Below, piece by piece: positions 8,006-39,526 of a stretch of DNA of 64,000 bases. A model generated the notes under the pieces. The model had not been told where the DNA came from. It did no database searches and saw nothing but the letters and a program-made list of their open reading frames with translations. This DNA comes from Oscillospiraceae bacterium (GTDB taxonomy: Bacteria > Bacillota > Clostridia > Oscillospirales > Oscillospiraceae), in assembly GCA_015068325.1 (NCBI GenBank), contig SVKQ01000010.1, forward strand, positions 38,420-102,419. Reading direction: 5' to 3'. Every line of letters begins with the position of its first letter. Position 1 is the stretch's first letter. Made by a program: the position numbers and the translations under genes.

Positions 8006-8043
8006 AAACAAAAACACCGTCCGTCCGGACGGTGTTTTTGTTT
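8006..8043 (-). terminator. Intrinsic terminator next to truncated tRNA-Val fragment
   Basis: AAACAAAAACACCGTCCG-tcc-GGACGGTGTTTTTGTTT. Confidence 0.75.
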
Positions 8044-8088
8044 GGTGGAGACTGCTGGACTCGAACCAGTGACCTCCTGCGTGTGAAG
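8042..8088 (-). repeat. Putative island att site: 3' half of tRNA-Val (direct repeat of 35585-35631)
   Basis: ttggtggagactGctggactcgaaccagtgacctcctgcgtgtgaag, 46/47 identical to intact tRNA-Val, same orientation, then diverges in the anticodon arm. Confidence 0.88.
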
Positions 8089-31272: not shown

Positions 31273-31316
31273 AAACGTCCCGGAACCCATTGCGCCGCAA
31301 TGGATTCCGGGATCGT
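31273..31316. repeat. Long imperfect inverted repeat
   Basis: aaacgtcccggaacccattgcg-cc-gcaatggattccgggatcgttt; about 20-bp arms. Confidence 0.6.
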
Positions 31317-31534
31317 TTCTTTCTGATTCTGCCTGGGACGCGAAAAATACATAACAATTTCCATATTTTGGGTATTTGTTTGACTGTTGTTTTCCTGCAG
31401 TTACCGCAATCTACAAAGCTCATACCGGGCAATGATAAAGGTTCGTTTGACTGTCGCCAGGTCTACAGGAGAGGATACTCAACGTATAACGTAGACGATT
31501 GAAAACGCAGGAACTGGAACGATTACATTACGAC

Positions 31535-31586
31535 TACGCATAACGTAAACAAAAAGATATGTTGACGATCAGCTACGTTATGCGTA
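31535..31586. repeat. 13-bp perfect inverted repeat with 26-bp spacer
   Basis: tacgcataacgta (31535-31547) / tacgttatgcgta (31574-31586). Confidence 0.8.
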
Positions 31587-31613
31587 ACAAATGGCGCTTC
31601 CGCACAAACGCCA

Positions 31614-31702
31614 AGTAGACAATATGTAATGACCTCCGATTTGTAGCATCGTGGATTTACCTGTATAATGTAGGTGTTCACAAACTACAAAAACAGGGAT
31701 TA
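31614..31702 (+). repeat. Intact 89-bp copy of the IS66 target sequence
   Basis: Exact inverted matches to 12186-12233 and 9302-9350, which overlap by the 8-bp TSD. Confidence 0.95.
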
Positions 31703-31949
31703 GCCAATCCGTTTGTCTCATGGTAAACTGATGGCGTATTGATTCAATGAACTTCCCCAGAACGGGCCTTGTTATGCAGTGAGCTGAGGATGTGGAACAT
31801 CCCGGCAGGTTGAACGGCTTTTGTCAGGAATGCGCTTACGCTCTCGAGCGACAACACTGTGCGTAATCCTCTTTCTGTAAAATGCCAAAAATAATTTCAA
31901 ATTAGGCACGAATTAACACGAAATAACACTAGATAAACTCTCAAAAAGT

Positions 31950-31978
31950 TTGACATCTTCGATATCTTGTGCTAATAT
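31950..31978 (+). promoter_or_regulatory. Consensus sigma-A promoter
   Basis: TTGACA (31950-31955) - 17 bp - TAATAT (31973-31978). Confidence 0.8.
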
Positions 31979-31984
31979 AATCTT

Positions 31985-32347
31985 GTTTTTATTAGATATG
32001 CCCACTCCCGGCCAGTGGAAATTGCTAAGTTGTGAAGCGTACCTCGGATATGGTCGCTATGACTCTGCACGATTGTGCAGTATTGATTGCCCCTCAGGGG
32101 TATTGGGATCTGTTTCCGCCCGTCTGATGGTGTCTATGGCTTTGCACCCATGGAACTTCGGCACCTGCGTACATCATTGTCTGTAGGAATGTTGCGGGAA
32201 TCGGATCGGTTTGGGATTTACCTGCTTTTGCAGGGATTGTAGGTATTTGGGACAGCACTGTTTTGGATAATTGTGCAGTCCCGGTTTTAGGATGAATATT
32301 GCTTACTAGAGGTCTGAAAAAGGCGAAAGCCGTTTTCAGACCTTTTT
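31985..32347 (+). ncRNA. Candidate structured non-coding RNA (~360 nt)
   Basis: Follows the consensus promoter; no credible ORF; stems 32002-06/32014-18, 32065-70/32075-80, 32090-93/32097-100, 32221-25/32230-34, 32249-58/32273-82; ends at an intrinsic terminator. Confidence 0.6.
32311..32347 (+). terminator. Intrinsic terminator of the candidate ncRNA
   Basis: GGTCTGAAAA-a-GGC-GAAA-GCC-g-TTTTCAGACC-TTTTT. Confidence 0.85.
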
Positions 32348-32908
32348 GTATCCATTTTTGAAGAAGAAAGCCCGGTTCCGGTTCAGGACTTGTCTCCCTG
32401 AACTGCTGCGGGCGAGGAGGTTTTTGTATGTTGAAGCTTTTTATTACCAGAGGAAATGATTTCAGACCGGTCTGGACTGCTGGTCACTCCCGCTTCTGGC
32501 AAAGCGGGAGGTCCTTTTACCACGTCATCCAGCAGTGCCAGTTGTTGGGCTTTGTATCCGGGCAGTCAGAGTGTCCGGCCGGTTATACAAAGCATCCCCA
32601 GCAAATCAGACCTGCACCGGAAGGTCGAAGAACACCAGCGGCATGTGCGTCGCAGCCGTTCCCAACGGTCGTGTTCGCCGCAGTCTCACCAGGCAGGGAG
32701 TTTCCATCCCTATGCGGCGTTGATACTAAACAGCCAATTTCATAAACAGAGACAGAGAACGGAACAGAGTTCCTAAACGTTGATACAGCAAGGTTTCCTC
32801 ATGTGATCGGTTCCTGTTTCTGCGGAGATCATCCGGAAACGGGGCGTTTGTGCCAACGGGTGTACTGCGTCCATTGGGCATTTCAGAACACAGGAGGAAC
32901 CTTTTCAT

Positions 32909-33826
32909 ATGAGGATCAAGATTCAACAAGTCGGCATTTATGAGACACTGGTTGCACAGTTGGATCGTATTTTCCGGCACAATCGGCAAGGCAGCTTTCA
33001 TACGAAGCGGCGTTATTATGAGGCCATGAAGCGATTCTGCGCCTACTTGTCCGATGTGTACCATCTGCAGAAGCTATCCAACATCAGCGGCAAGCATCTG
33101 GTCAGTTATGTGATCTATCTGCAGGGCACCGGTAAATCGGCCAGTACTATTAAAACAGATCTGGCTGCCATCCGGTTTTTCCATGACAAAATGGATCACA
33201 AGTACACGCTGCCTTCCAACGACGAATTAGGTGTTGCATTGGAACGTCGCAGATTCGGACAGGATGACCGCACCTGGAGCATGACGGAGTTCAACAAGAT
33301 GCTGGGCAAGGCGTTGGCGATTGACCGCTATGACTTCATCCTTGCACTTTACCTGGCCCGGTATGCCGGCCTGCGTATCCATGAGTGCTTCCGCATCGAC
33401 ACCGCCACGGCAGAGCGGGCGCTTCGGGAGAACGCCATTACCATCAAGGGCAAGGGCGGCAAAGTGCGGACTGTCCCCATCAATGAGCAGATTGCCATTG
33501 CCATGCGGAAGCAGCTGGAGCGCACGCCACGGGGACATAAGCTGCTGGTGCCCGATGACATGCCCACGGATCGGGCTATCAACCATCTGCAATTCTTCAT
33601 CATGCGGCACCGGGACGAAGTGCGGGATGTGGATTCTGATCGCCCGATGACCTTCCATGGACTTCGCCATATCTACGCGGCAGAGAAATACCAAGAGCTG
33701 GTCTACAGCGGCAAGAGTCCTCTGGACGCCCATTTCGAGGTCTCCCACCTTCTGGGCCATGAACGGCCGGATGTGACCAACATCTATCTGGCCTCCGTGA
33801 GAAAGGGTGATAAGCATGGCCAGTAA
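32909..33826 (+). CDS. Tyrosine recombinase (site-specific integrase) 1
   Basis: LARYAGLRIHE ... MTFHGLRHIYAAEKYQEL ... VSHLLGHERPDVTNIYLA. Confidence 0.85.
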   Translation: MRIKIQQVGIYETLVAQLDRIFRHNRQGSFHTKRRYYEAMKRFCAYLSDVYHLQKLSNISGKHLVSYVIYLQGTGKSASTIKTDLAAIRFFHDKMDHKYTLPSNDELGVALERRRFGQDDRTWSMTEFNKMLGKALAIDRYDFILALYLARYAGLRIHECFRIDTATAERALRENAITIKGKGGKVRTVPINEQIAIAMRKQLERTPRGHKLLVPDDMPTDRAINHLQFFIMRHRDEVRDVDSDRPMTFHGLRHIYAAEKYQELVYSGKSPLDAHFEVSHLLGHERPDVTNIYLASVRKGDKHGQ

Positions 33827-34010
33827 ATATCGCTCTTACGATGAACTCCCGCTGACCCTTCGGGTAGAGGACCTGATGCCCATTCTCGACATCGGACGGA
33901 ATACGGCGTATGAGCTGATCCGCTGTGGAAAGATCCGCAGCATTCGGATCGGTAAGCAGCTCCGCATCCCCAAGCAAGCGCTGATCGACTATCTTTCGGA
34001 CGATGACTGA
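33816..34010 (+). CDS. Excisionase / helix-turn-helix DNA-binding protein
   Basis: MASKYRSYDELPLTLRVEDLMPILDIGRNTAYELIRCGKIRSIRIGKQLRIPKQALIDYLSDDD. Confidence 0.85.
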   Translation: MASKYRSYDELPLTLRVEDLMPILDIGRNTAYELIRCGKIRSIRIGKQLRIPKQALIDYLSDDD

Positions 34011-34113: not shown

Positions 34114-35436
34114 ATGCCGCGCAAACCAAAAGTAACCAGACGAGGAAAAAACGAGGGCAGCGTCTACCGCCGCAAGGACGGAAAATGGGTAGGCCAGGTG
34201 ACGGTGGGATACCGGCCGGACAATGGCAAGCCCATCCGCAAATACACCTACGCCAACACCCGGGAGGAAGCCGCCCGTTGGGTGGCTCTGACGCTGACCA
34301 CAGAACTGGATAAAGAGACCCATCCGCTTTCAGAGGACCTGATCCTGAAGGACTTTCTCCACAAGTGGCTCACCACATTCAAGATTCACGAGGTGTGCAG
34401 CAGAACCATGGAGCTGTACTATTCCAGCGAGCGGCTGCATATCGTTCCAGCTCTGGGCAACTGCACCCTGGATGCGGTGACACCGCTGAAGGTCCAAACG
34501 TTTCTGTATCAACTGCAATCGGAAAAGCAACTATCCAACCGGACGATCTCGCTGATCCGCAGTGTGCTGATCCAGATGTACGACTACGCGATGGAACTTC
34601 GACTGGTGGAAAGCAATCCTGCACGCAACACAAAGCTCCCCAGACAGCCCCGGATGGCGGGGGAGGGGGAGAATAAGGTCATTCCCATCGCGCAGCGGGA
34701 GGCTCTGCTGAAAGCTGCCGCAGAGGACCCCATTATGAGCCCCGCCATCACCACGCTGATGCTGACGGGTATGCGGATTGGCGAACTGCTGGCCCTCCAG
34801 TGGAAGCATGTGGATTTCACGGCTAAGACCATCACCATCCAGCAATCTCTGACCCGGGAGCTGACCTTTGACGAGGACGGCAAGACCCAGAGAATGGTGG
34901 ATGCTCTGGGCGCCACCAAGACGCGGACGTCCCAGCGGGTCATTCAGGCACCAGACTTGGTGCTGAAACGGCTGCGGGAGTGGATGCGCCATGTGGCAAC
35001 GCTGAAAGGCGGTCTCAAGGTGCTGGTGCCGGATGGCTTTATCTTCATCAGCACCCGCACCATGAAAATGCGGACGTACTCCGGCTTCCGGGCCAGCTAC
35101 CGCCATTTCCTGGAGCGGAACGGCTTTGAGGCGGAGGGACTGAACCTGCACCGGTTCCGCCGCACTTACGCCTCCATGCTGCTGGAGCAGGAGATCAACC
35201 CGAAGATCGTGCAGAAGCTGCTGGGCCACCGGGACGTCAACACCACGCTGGACGTCTATACCCATGTGGTGCCGGAGGTATTTTCGTGCGTGACTACAGC
35301 TGTGAACGATGCGTCGGAGAAACTGCTGGCAGGAACCTATGCGCCGAAGATGAACGAGGCCCAGGTCCGCGATCAGCTGCGGCAGTTGGACCCACTGCTT
35401 TCCGAGGATGTGGAGATCAACGTCCGCTACGCCTGA
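34114..35436 (+). CDS. Phage-type tyrosine integrase 2, adjacent to tRNA-Val
   Basis: N-terminal arm-binding GSVYRRKDGKWVGQVTVGYRPDNGKPIRKYTYANTREEA; LTGMRIGELLALQWKHVDF; LHRFRRTYASMLLEQEINPKIVQKLLGHRDVNTTLDVYTHV. Confidence 0.95.
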   Translation: MPRKPKVTRRGKNEGSVYRRKDGKWVGQVTVGYRPDNGKPIRKYTYANTREEAARWVALTLTTELDKETHPLSEDLILKDFLHKWLTTFKIHEVCSRTMELYYSSERLHIVPALGNCTLDAVTPLKVQTFLYQLQSEKQLSNRTISLIRSVLIQMYDYAMELRLVESNPARNTKLPRQPRMAGEGENKVIPIAQREALLKAAAEDPIMSPAITTLMLTGMRIGELLALQWKHVDFTAKTITIQQSLTRELTFDEDGKTQRMVDALGATKTRTSQRVIQAPDLVLKRLREWMRHVATLKGGLKVLVPDGFIFISTRTMKMRTYSGFRASYRHFLERNGFEAEGLNLHRFRRTYASMLLEQEINPKIVQKLLGHRDVNTTLDVYTHVVPEVFSCVTTAVNDASEKLLAGTYAPKMNEAQVRDQLRQLDPLLSEDVEINVRYA

Positions 35437-35547: not shown

Positions 35548-35585
35548 GAATCCCTTGCAGTGCAATAACTACAAGGGATTCCGAT
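35548..35585 (-). terminator. Hairpin downstream of tRNA-Val (island side)
   Basis: cggaatcccttg...caagggattccg. Confidence 0.5.
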
Positions 35586-35662
35586 TGGTGGAGACTACTG
35601 GACTCGAACCAGTGACCTCCTGCGTGTGAAGCAGGCGCTCTAACCAGCTGAGCTAAGCCTCC
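35586..35662 (-). tRNA. tRNA-Val(CAC)
   Basis: rc GGAGGCTTAGCTCAGCTGGTTAGAGCGCCTGCTTCACACGCAGGAGGTCACTGGTTCGAGTCCAGTAGTCTCCACCA; anticodon CAC. Confidence 0.95.
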
Positions 35663-37123: not shown

Positions 37124-39526
37124 TCACATGGCGGCAGCCTGCTCGTCATTGCGGCGATCCTCGCCGCGGGTCAGCAGGGCCAGGACAGCGGCAGCGGCCA
37201 GGATCGCGGCCATCACCAGCGTCCACCGATCCACCAGGACCATGGGGTTGTGGATGTTCTCAGTCAGCACGAAGAGGACCACGGACACCGCCGCGGGGAT
37301 CAAGCCCATCAGGCGGGCGCGCCTGTCGCTGCGCTGCTCCTCATCTGCCTCTTCGTCCTCTTCCTTTTTCAGGAGGCTGGCGGCCATGGCCAGCGCGAGC
37401 AGCACGGTCAGCACACTACAGATCAGATTCGCCAACGCCCAGCTGCTGCCAGCGGGGGCAGCCAGAGGAGCGGGGCCATCCATGAACACACTGTCGGGAA
37501 TGCGGGGGGAGACGCTCAGGGGAACGATGTTTTCGACGACCTGCTCCGGTTCCACGCCGCTTTCAGCTGCTTCAGGCGCTTCGGATACGCTGACGGCGGC
37601 GGGAATCTGTGCGGGAGCCTCAATGGCTTCGGACTCGTCGATGGACTCGGGCTCGTCGATGGACTCGGGCTCGTCGGTGATCTCAGGCTCGTTGATGGAC
37701 TCAGGCTCGTCGGCGATCTCAGGCTCATCAGTGGACTCAGGCTCGTCGGTGATCTCAGGCTCGTCGATGGACTCGGGCTCGTCAATGGCTTCGGGCTCGT
37801 CGATGGACTCGGGCTCGTCGGTGATCTCAGGCTCGTCGATGGACTCAGGCTCGTCGGCGATCTCAGGCTCATCAGTGGACTCAGGCTCGTTGGTGATCTC
37901 AGGCTCGTCGATGGACTCGGGCTCGTCGATGGACTCAGGCACGCCGGGCTCCGCGGGCTCGTCAGGGGTCTCAATAATGGTCTGCGCGTAGTAGACGTTG
38001 ATAACTTTATTTCCGTCACAGTTGCCCTGGGCGTCGCCCTCCATGCGGGAGCAGGTGTAGCCGTCGAGCTCCAGAGAGGCGTAATCGCTGACGTCGTAGG
38101 TCTTTTCGCCGCGGACCTGGCTGCTGCCCTCCCGGCGGAGGGAGACGGATTCAGCCACGGCCTCGCCGGTGGTATCGTCCAGGTAGTTCACGGTGATGGT
38201 GTGGTAGGACGGTGCGAAGGTGAACAGGAAGTTCAGCGTCACGTCGCTGTGGATCATGGTGAAATCACGGTCCAGGCTGCTGCCGCCGTTGCCGATCACG
38301 CTGCCCACCAGGCTGTGCTCGGGGTTGGAGCCGCCGGACATGTACATGCTGCCCAGACGGTAGGTGTCGCCGTTGTAGAGGATGCCGTTCTCGCCGTCCA
38401 GTGTGTAGCCGTCAGCGGCCCACATGGTCCGGTCGATCCGCTGCACCTGGCCGGCCTGCAGGGTGATCTGCCGGCCGGGGATGACCTCGGCGTCCTGGGC
38501 GATGCCGTCCACCATGGTGCCGCCGGCCTCGGGGGAGAACTCGTAGTTGACGGTGATGGTATACTCCCGCTCCCGTGCCTCGGCGGTGTAGGAGAAGTCG
38601 AAGCGGACGTCCATCTCACCATCCAGGCCGGAGGCGTCAAAGGAGGCGTAGGTGGAATTTTCCGTCAGGGAGGCGTCCCGGGCCTCGCCGTTGACCAGGA
38701 CGGTCACGCCGGTGGCGGTGGCGATGCCGTTGAGGCTGTAGCCGCTGCGGACCACGCCGCCCCGCAGGCCGTCCTCAGTGTTGCAGTCCAGCAGATCTTT
38801 CTCGGCCCAAAACCGACCGTCCACATAGACGCTGATTCGGCCGCTGATGCCGGTTTCAACCTTCTCCGGCTCCGGTACCCGGACGGAGTGGTCGCTGGTG
38901 TAGGCGTTGTCGGTGAAAGAGATGCGGTAGGTGGCCTCATCCACCTGATAGGTCCAGTTGTAGGAGACGTCCAGATCCTCTGCGATGGCGATGCCGTCGT
39001 CGCCGGAGACAGCGGTAATGGTCTGGTTGTCATAGCCAGCCTTCTTGCCGGTGAAGGTCACGCTGTAGCCGGCCAGGGGCTTTTTGCCGTCGGAGATGCG
39101 CAGCGTCGCCGTGCCGCAGACAATCTCCTCGGGAGCGGGGAGGGCCTCTTCCGCAACGGTGTAGTAGACGTTGGCCTGTACATCGGAGCCGTCCTTCACC
39201 AACTCGGGATCGGAGAAGGAGAAGAAGTAGATGCAGCCGAACATGCTGAACACGTAGTCGGGCGTGGCGCCGTCCACCGTGACGGAGTAGCCGGTGGGAT
39301 CGCCATAGCCCAGGTCGGCCAGGTCGATCTGCCCGTAGCGGAGCTCACAGTCGCAGTAGCTCTCATCCAGGGCGTAGCTGTGAACGGCCTTGCCGTTGAC
39401 ATACACATGGATGGTGCAGGTGGGGGTCCGGGCGTCGCTGGCCAGCGCCGTGGCGGGTATCAGGCTCAGGCACATCACTAGGACCAAGAGCAGGGAGAGG
39501 ATCTTGCTGCAAGTACTCTTTTTCAT
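37124..39526 (-). CDS. Secreted/cell-surface protein with MucBP-like domain, DEPESI repeats and C-terminal TM segments
   Basis: Signal peptide MKKSTCSKILSLLLVLVMCLSLIPATALA; YHTITVNYLDDTTGEAVAESVSLR; 17 six-residue repeats; C-terminal hydrophobic helices. Confidence 0.85.
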   Translation of the reverse strand: MKKSTCSKILSLLLVLVMCLSLIPATALASDARTPTCTIHVYVNGKAVHSYALDESYCDCELRYGQIDLADLGYGDPTGYSVTVDGATPDYVFSMFGCIYFFSFSDPELVKDGSDVQANVYYTVAEEALPAPEEIVCGTATLRISDGKKPLAGYSVTFTGKKAGYDNQTITAVSGDDGIAIAEDLDVSYNWTYQVDEATYRISFTDNAYTSDHSVRVPEPEKVETGISGRISVYVDGRFWAEKDLLDCNTEDGLRGGVVRSGYSLNGIATATGVTVLVNGEARDASLTENSTYASFDASGLDGEMDVRFDFSYTAEAREREYTITVNYEFSPEAGGTMVDGIAQDAEVIPGRQITLQAGQVQRIDRTMWAADGYTLDGENGILYNGDTYRLGSMYMSGGSNPEHSLVGSVIGNGGSSLDRDFTMIHSDVTLNFLFTFAPSYHTITVNYLDDTTGEAVAESVSLRREGSSQVRGEKTYDVSDYASLELDGYTCSRMEGDAQGNCDGNKVINVYYAQTIIETPDEPAEPGVPESIDEPESIDEPEITNEPESTDEPEIADEPESIDEPEITDEPESIDEPEAIDEPESIDEPEITDEPESTDEPEIADEPESINEPEITDEPESIDEPESIDESEAIEAPAQIPAAVSVSEAPEAAESGVEPEQVVENIVPLSVSPRIPDSVFMDGPAPLAAPAGSSWALANLICSVLTVLLALAMAASLLKKEEDEEADEEQRSDRRARLMGLIPAAVSVVLFVLTENIHNPMVLVDRWTLVMAAILAAAAVLALLTRGEDRRNDEQAAAM
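37640..37950 (-). repeat. 18-bp coding repeats in a 144-bp higher-order tandem duplication
   Basis: PE(S/I)xDE units; aggctcatca recurs at 37721 and 37865, exactly 144 bp apart. Confidence 0.85.

Follow-up and report, generated by a model that had tools for sequence, protein, structure and literature searches.

A structured RNA module at the head of a probable leader to the integration operon of a tRNA-Val island in Oscillospiraceae

The window analysed here is a stretch of 64,000 nucleotides (contig SVKQ01000010.1, positions 38,420 to 102,419 of the forward strand) from a 1.96-Mb Oscillospiraceae assembly, GCA_015068325.1. Two 47-nt repeats, at 8042-8088 and 35584-35630, indicate that it holds a 27.5-kb integrated island whose integration operon lies at the tRNA end. 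The relevant features are listed below in window coordinates, R1 and R2 denoting the first and the refined covariance model of an RNA module here called type A.

8042-8088, no strand assigned: attL, a fragment of tRNA-Val at the island's far end, paired as a 47-nt repeat with 35584-35630
31734-31809, plus strand: type A module, first copy, partly degenerate (R1 36.6 bits, R2 62 bits)
31950-31978, plus strand: promoter of the second unit, TTGACA-17-TAATAT, with extended -10 (kept in copies L088, L057 and L017)
31983-32061, plus strand: type A module, second copy (R1 81.4 bits, R2 72.7 bits; hairpins P2 and P3 covary)
31989-31996, plus strand: UUAUUAGA of the second copy
32002-32018, plus strand: P2 hairpin, CCACU/AGUGG, of the second copy
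32022-32035, plus strand: UUGCUAAGUUGUGA of the second copy
32036-32058, plus strand: P3 hairpin, AGCG.../CGCU, of the second copy
32062-32305, plus strand: structured leader body with stems CUGCAC/GUGCAG, CCCC/GGGG, CCUGC/GCAGG and GGGAC-A-GCAC/GUGC-A-GUCCC (folding and comparison of copies)
32310-32349, plus strand: intrinsic terminator with GAAA loop and T5 tail (about -21 kcal/mol)
32609-32731, plus strand: match to xerDC RNA (RF03062; 59.9 bits, E 1.4e-8), below the gathering threshold of 72.5 bits
32909-33826, plus strand: Xer-type tyrosine recombinase, opening the integration operon (Pfam PF00589, E 1.4e-12, and PF02899)
33807-34010, plus strand: small HTH_17 protein overlapping the Xer stop (Pfam PF12728, E 5.5e-11)
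34114-35436, plus strand: second tyrosine integrase, adjoining tRNA-Val (Pfam PF00589, E 9.7e-26)
35584-35630, no strand assigned: attR, the 3' part of tRNA-Val(cac), 46/47 identical to 8042-8088

The first-pass annotation, which contained neither the att sites nor the xerDC motif nor the upstream module copy at 31734-31809, had placed the unit in a decayed mobile-element region. That description does not hold: the att repeats are recognisable and the integration operon is intact. The HTH_17 protein is presumably excisionase-like. In other genomes the block of leader, Xer and HTH genes adjoins tRNA-Gln, tRNA-Cys, tRNA-Leu or tRNA-Val, and in the L017/L087 and L088 copies homology stops within or just past the HTH gene; on these grounds the second integrase appears to be an exchangeable part that chooses the target. 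The cargo of the island (8042-35630), as read from translations, comprises peptide uptake-like functions (ABC transporter, peptidases), two adjacent IlvD-like genes, ferritin and an IS66-like remnant. At 37124-39526 an 800-aa protein carries long acidic DEPESIDEPEITDEPES-like repeats.

The xerDC RNA match directly precedes the Xer integrase, which starts at 32909, an arrangement common to the relatives, where scores of up to 92.6 bits are reached. It shares with the unit described below a position upstream of the same Xer integrases but is a separate element past the terminator, and the unit itself does not match it. A 105-aa ORF with a good ribosome-binding site (32428-32745) lies right past the terminator and overlaps the xerDC RNA; it is not evident in more distant loci.

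The promoter of the unit, present as first described, consists of a -35 box (TTGACA, 31950-31955), a 17-nt spacer and a -10 box (TAATAT, 31973-31978) preceded by TG. Taken individually such a match is not above chance, 2.5 kb containing 3 promoter-like sites where shuffles predict 3.3, but it is conserved across homologous copies. Some 330 nt of structured non-coding sequence separate it from the terminator. The sole listed ORF, of 78 aa, has a TTG start at the -35 box itself, and one homologue carries a single-base deletion within it; the unit is thus non-coding and has no convincing ORF. The stems named in the first-pass annotation, GGGAC-A-GCAC/GTGC-A-GTCCC among them, were all found. The leader body is about 90% conserved in five copies, with two-sided changes in 4 of 112 consensus pairs; outside the module, distant loci have no body sequence in common. 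The terminator hairpin (32310-32343), AGGTCTGAAAAAGGC-GAAA-GCCGTTTTCAGACCT followed by T5, is strong and has the loop and T-run originally reported, although its stem comprises 15 positions with one mismatch rather than 10 bp. With the terminator included, the RNA folds at -133.5 kcal/mol (z -3.8) and beats 100 of 100 shuffles; without it the advantage is small (z -1.8), and 4 of 100 shuffles are equally good.

Further upstream, a strong 16-bp terminator-like hairpin on the minus strand (31278-31312) is kept in other copies, as are three TAACGTA/TACGTTA-type repeats, both inverted and direct, at 31482-31602 (79% in L030). The latter are candidate recombinase or excisionase sites. An insertion of about 80 nt at 31620-31700, missing in L017 and L088, contains a TGTATAATG promoter-like box.

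Comparison of upstream regions shows that the unit's first 80 nt are found again upstream of relatives of the integrase. This type A module has the order UUAUUAGA, hairpin P2, CUUACUAAG-nn-GUGA, hairpin P3, so that conserved unpaired blocks flank two variable hairpins. Model R1, built on 11 sequences and later refined to R2, exposed the degenerate copy at 31734-31809 as well as tandem copies elsewhere. MAFFT misaligned the hairpins of the divergent modules, and a model-fitted alignment of 23 distinct rows was used instead; being structure-guided, it yields counts biased towards the structure. In it 87.8% of cells are paired, and 22 cells, mostly in P2 and P3, show two-sided changes, where shuffles give 6.9 and 0 of 500 reach the observed number. 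RNAalifold recovered both hairpins from the same alignment. A proposed outer pairing, P1, shows one-sided variation only. Judged from these comparisons, type A is a genuine structured RNA. The Rfam models, including ROOL, GOLLD, HEARO, OLE, raiA and the group I and II introns, gave no match to 31980-32350 either at gathering thresholds or at E<=5. Together with the covariation of P2 and P3 in homologues, this bears out the idea of a selected, mobile-element-associated structured RNA outside the known Rfam classes.

The -10 box stands at constant spacing from the type A module. Most type A promoters have in common the box AGATTTnGGTAT, at a constant distance and with a weak -35; the second copy in the window and that in L028 have TTGACA instead of this type of promoter.

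Matches to the type A model were found in 10 of 401 genomes of the family with R1 and in 11 of 331 with R2, all of them Oscillospiraceae, and among 227 genomes taken from the order none outside the family gave a match. Carriers of the unit include O. valericigenes An890 and An860. On these counts type A is rare, and the tree depth is limited. No relative of the whole 431-nt unit came up when 98 other genomes were searched at the DNA level, and a pattern search yielded none elsewhere in the order. In viral contigs, exact patterns of the 5' motif matched either nowhere or once by chance, within a phage gene (L038). A match in G277:C5 was dropped since it falls inside a gene.

Besides Xer integrases, type A precedes an SSB gene and the gene that opens a YqaJ/RecD2/primase cluster. 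Two short leaders that begin with the module lead into an SSB gene (L049, where the identity of SSB rests on Pfam, and L055). At two other loci (L048 and L056) it precedes the gene heading a cluster with YqaJ, a RecD2-type helicase and a DnaG-type zinc-finger protein; similar copies precede such clusters in L061 and in the human-gut contig L093. The heading gene may be called DUF932-like from a reading of its sequence, Pfam giving no match. In the short leaders the terminator begins 73-103 nt downstream of the module start, and a ribosome-binding site and start codon follow within about 50-100 nt, so that module, terminator and start codon all fall within about 200 nt. No promoter is visible between terminator and start codon in these SSB and DUF932-like leaders.

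This compactness is the strongest reason to regard the unit as a leader rather than as a separate RNA gene. The first-pass annotation had considered it a free-standing ornate RNA, and a small RNA with its own terminator, acting in trans, would explain both the completeness of the promoter-to-terminator unit and its z-score. Such an RNA is nevertheless unlikely. What is conserved is a promoter-proximal module of 80 nt, found elsewhere some 75-100 nt ahead of an intrinsic terminator and less than 200 nt before SSB or DUF932-like genes, and the short versions leave scant space for a promoter belonging to the gene. A promoter scan of 2.5 kb revealed no promoter-like site on the same strand between the terminator and the Xer integrase, which couples the unit tightly to the genes downstream, and the absence of common body sequence beyond the module in distant loci also speaks against an independent RNA. 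A cis-acting leader is highly probable. In the window the integration operon (Xer, HTH, Int) of the tRNA-Val island most likely has the unit as its 5' leader, a reading that we regard as well supported.

At integrase loci one to four promoter-plus-module units are found, of three types, A, B and C, which replace one another and share a common terminator at the end. Type B, AUUGAU..UGUGCG...UUGCACACGUUGU..UUUGUACG, and type C, in which repeats of AGGGCGGAGUA lead into a hairpin, occupy the place of type A in other integrase loci; in type B, 2 of 10 sequences have the closing stem changed on both sides. A-A arrays are seen in the window and in L088, L087 and L010, and other arrangements are C-A-A (L030), A-C (L025), A-C-A-A (L027), B-B-C (L091) and C-C (L003). 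Each of the 19 integrase loci whose upstream sequence could be used carries one or more units of type A, B or C, a count that leaves out L032, with unrelated coding sequence upstream, and L012, which is too short. Most of the integrase loci that were inspected show a terminator at positions of about -530 to -720 relative to the integrase. A GGGC-GUAnUAU-GCCC hairpin across the types, spotted by eye, was rejected, its strict pattern occurring just 6 times in 21 upstream regions.

The presence of a structured RNA immediately upstream of a recombinase might suggest a guide or bridge-like RNA for the tyrosine recombinase. We consider this very improbable: integrases that are 87% identical can have leader bodies that differ widely, other relatives replace type A by B or C, and type A also precedes SSB and DUF932-like genes.

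Frpo promoters are active as single-stranded DNA. A comparable single-stranded DNA element, active in transfer, is conceivable here too, as has been proposed for the STAXI motif (RF01728), a repeated pseudoknot of Enterobacteriales whose authors suggested a role as single-stranded DNA (PMC2864571). The tandem copies described here likewise adjoin SSB, XerDC integrase and DNA-handling genes, the very neighbourhood from which STAXI takes its name (PMC2864571). Yet the modules follow ordinary double-strand promoters at a constant distance, an intrinsic terminator lies downstream, and the G-U pairs in P1 and P3 favour an RNA of this strand. Nor did cmscan find a STAXI match in the window and its relatives, and we think a single-stranded DNA function quite improbable.

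The likeness to cis-acting antitermination RNAs rests on the promoter-proximal position and the mobile-element setting. The put RNA of phage HK022, the EAR RNA of Bacillus, canT of Tn916 and conAn2 of pLS20 act in cis to bring about antitermination; they are promoter-proximal structured RNAs in the leaders of mobile-element or long operons with terminators ahead (PMC11658703, PMC8955417). The unit in the window similarly has a structured RNA near its 5' end, with the start taken from the promoter, upstream of the terminator. It differs in that type A has no demonstrated sequence or structure in common with these RNAs, antitermination being here a prediction. Within the leader itself no ORF for a ConAn1-like protein, the partner encoded with conAn2, was found.

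By position and analogy, a put/EAR/canT-like antitermination RNA in the leader of the integration operon is our preferred reading, with a probability of roughly 0.55. Transcription would begin near 31985 and the type A module be made first; polymerase would then meet the terminator at 32310-32343, and transcripts that passed it would run on across the xerDC RNA to the integrase. The module would act in cis on the polymerase that made it, or through a recruited factor. Only transcripts from the element's own promoters would in this way pass the terminator, and stray read-through would be stopped. We infer both the read-through and the module as its cause; observed are the constant order of promoter, module, terminator and gene and its reappearance ahead of several operons of mobile elements.

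A switch that depends on a protein or ligand would present a similar picture, and an attenuator in which the module is the aptamer or protein site that decides termination is the main rival, although rather less probable. It would account for unpaired conserved blocks around two variable hairpins followed by terminator and gene, and the different promoter boxes on the three module types suggest different inputs. In 10 leaders, however, the 5' arm of the terminator pairs with the upstream leader no more than with a shuffled leader, in a thermodynamic calculation without pseudoknots or co-transcriptional folding, and thus no mutually exclusive pairing rises above shuffles. A classical antiterminator switch is unsupported for the same reason, there being no competing hairpin for that arm in the 10 leaders. 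The distance from module to terminator, moreover, varies from 73 to 324 nt, a spread that fits processive action better than a local switch. It is the lack of a detected competing antiterminator pairing that leads us to favour put/EAR/canT-like antitermination.

A broader proposal, tentative at best, is that A, B and C form a set of exchangeable promoter-plus-RNA cassettes in Oscillospiraceae mobile elements, lined up in tandem ahead of operons for recombinase, SSB and replication, each emitting a put-like RNA that would license its own polymerase past a shared terminator. We know of no counterpart for three exchangeable tandem module types. The structured RNA modules, numbering at least two (A and B) along with a repeat-type third (C), were absent from Rfam at the time of the search; they are tied to the timing with which mobile elements of gut Firmicutes switch on integrase, SSB and replication genes. 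Were antitermination true, it would indicate how an element distinguishes its own transcripts from host read-through and would provide small, portable antitermination parts.

The type B promoters have a palindrome, ACAATATATTGT, between -35 and -10 (L091 at 1339; L002, minus strand, at 352; L005, minus strand, at 947), and a TTGGA...TCCAA palindrome often precedes the type C promoters. Both are likely operators of element regulators.
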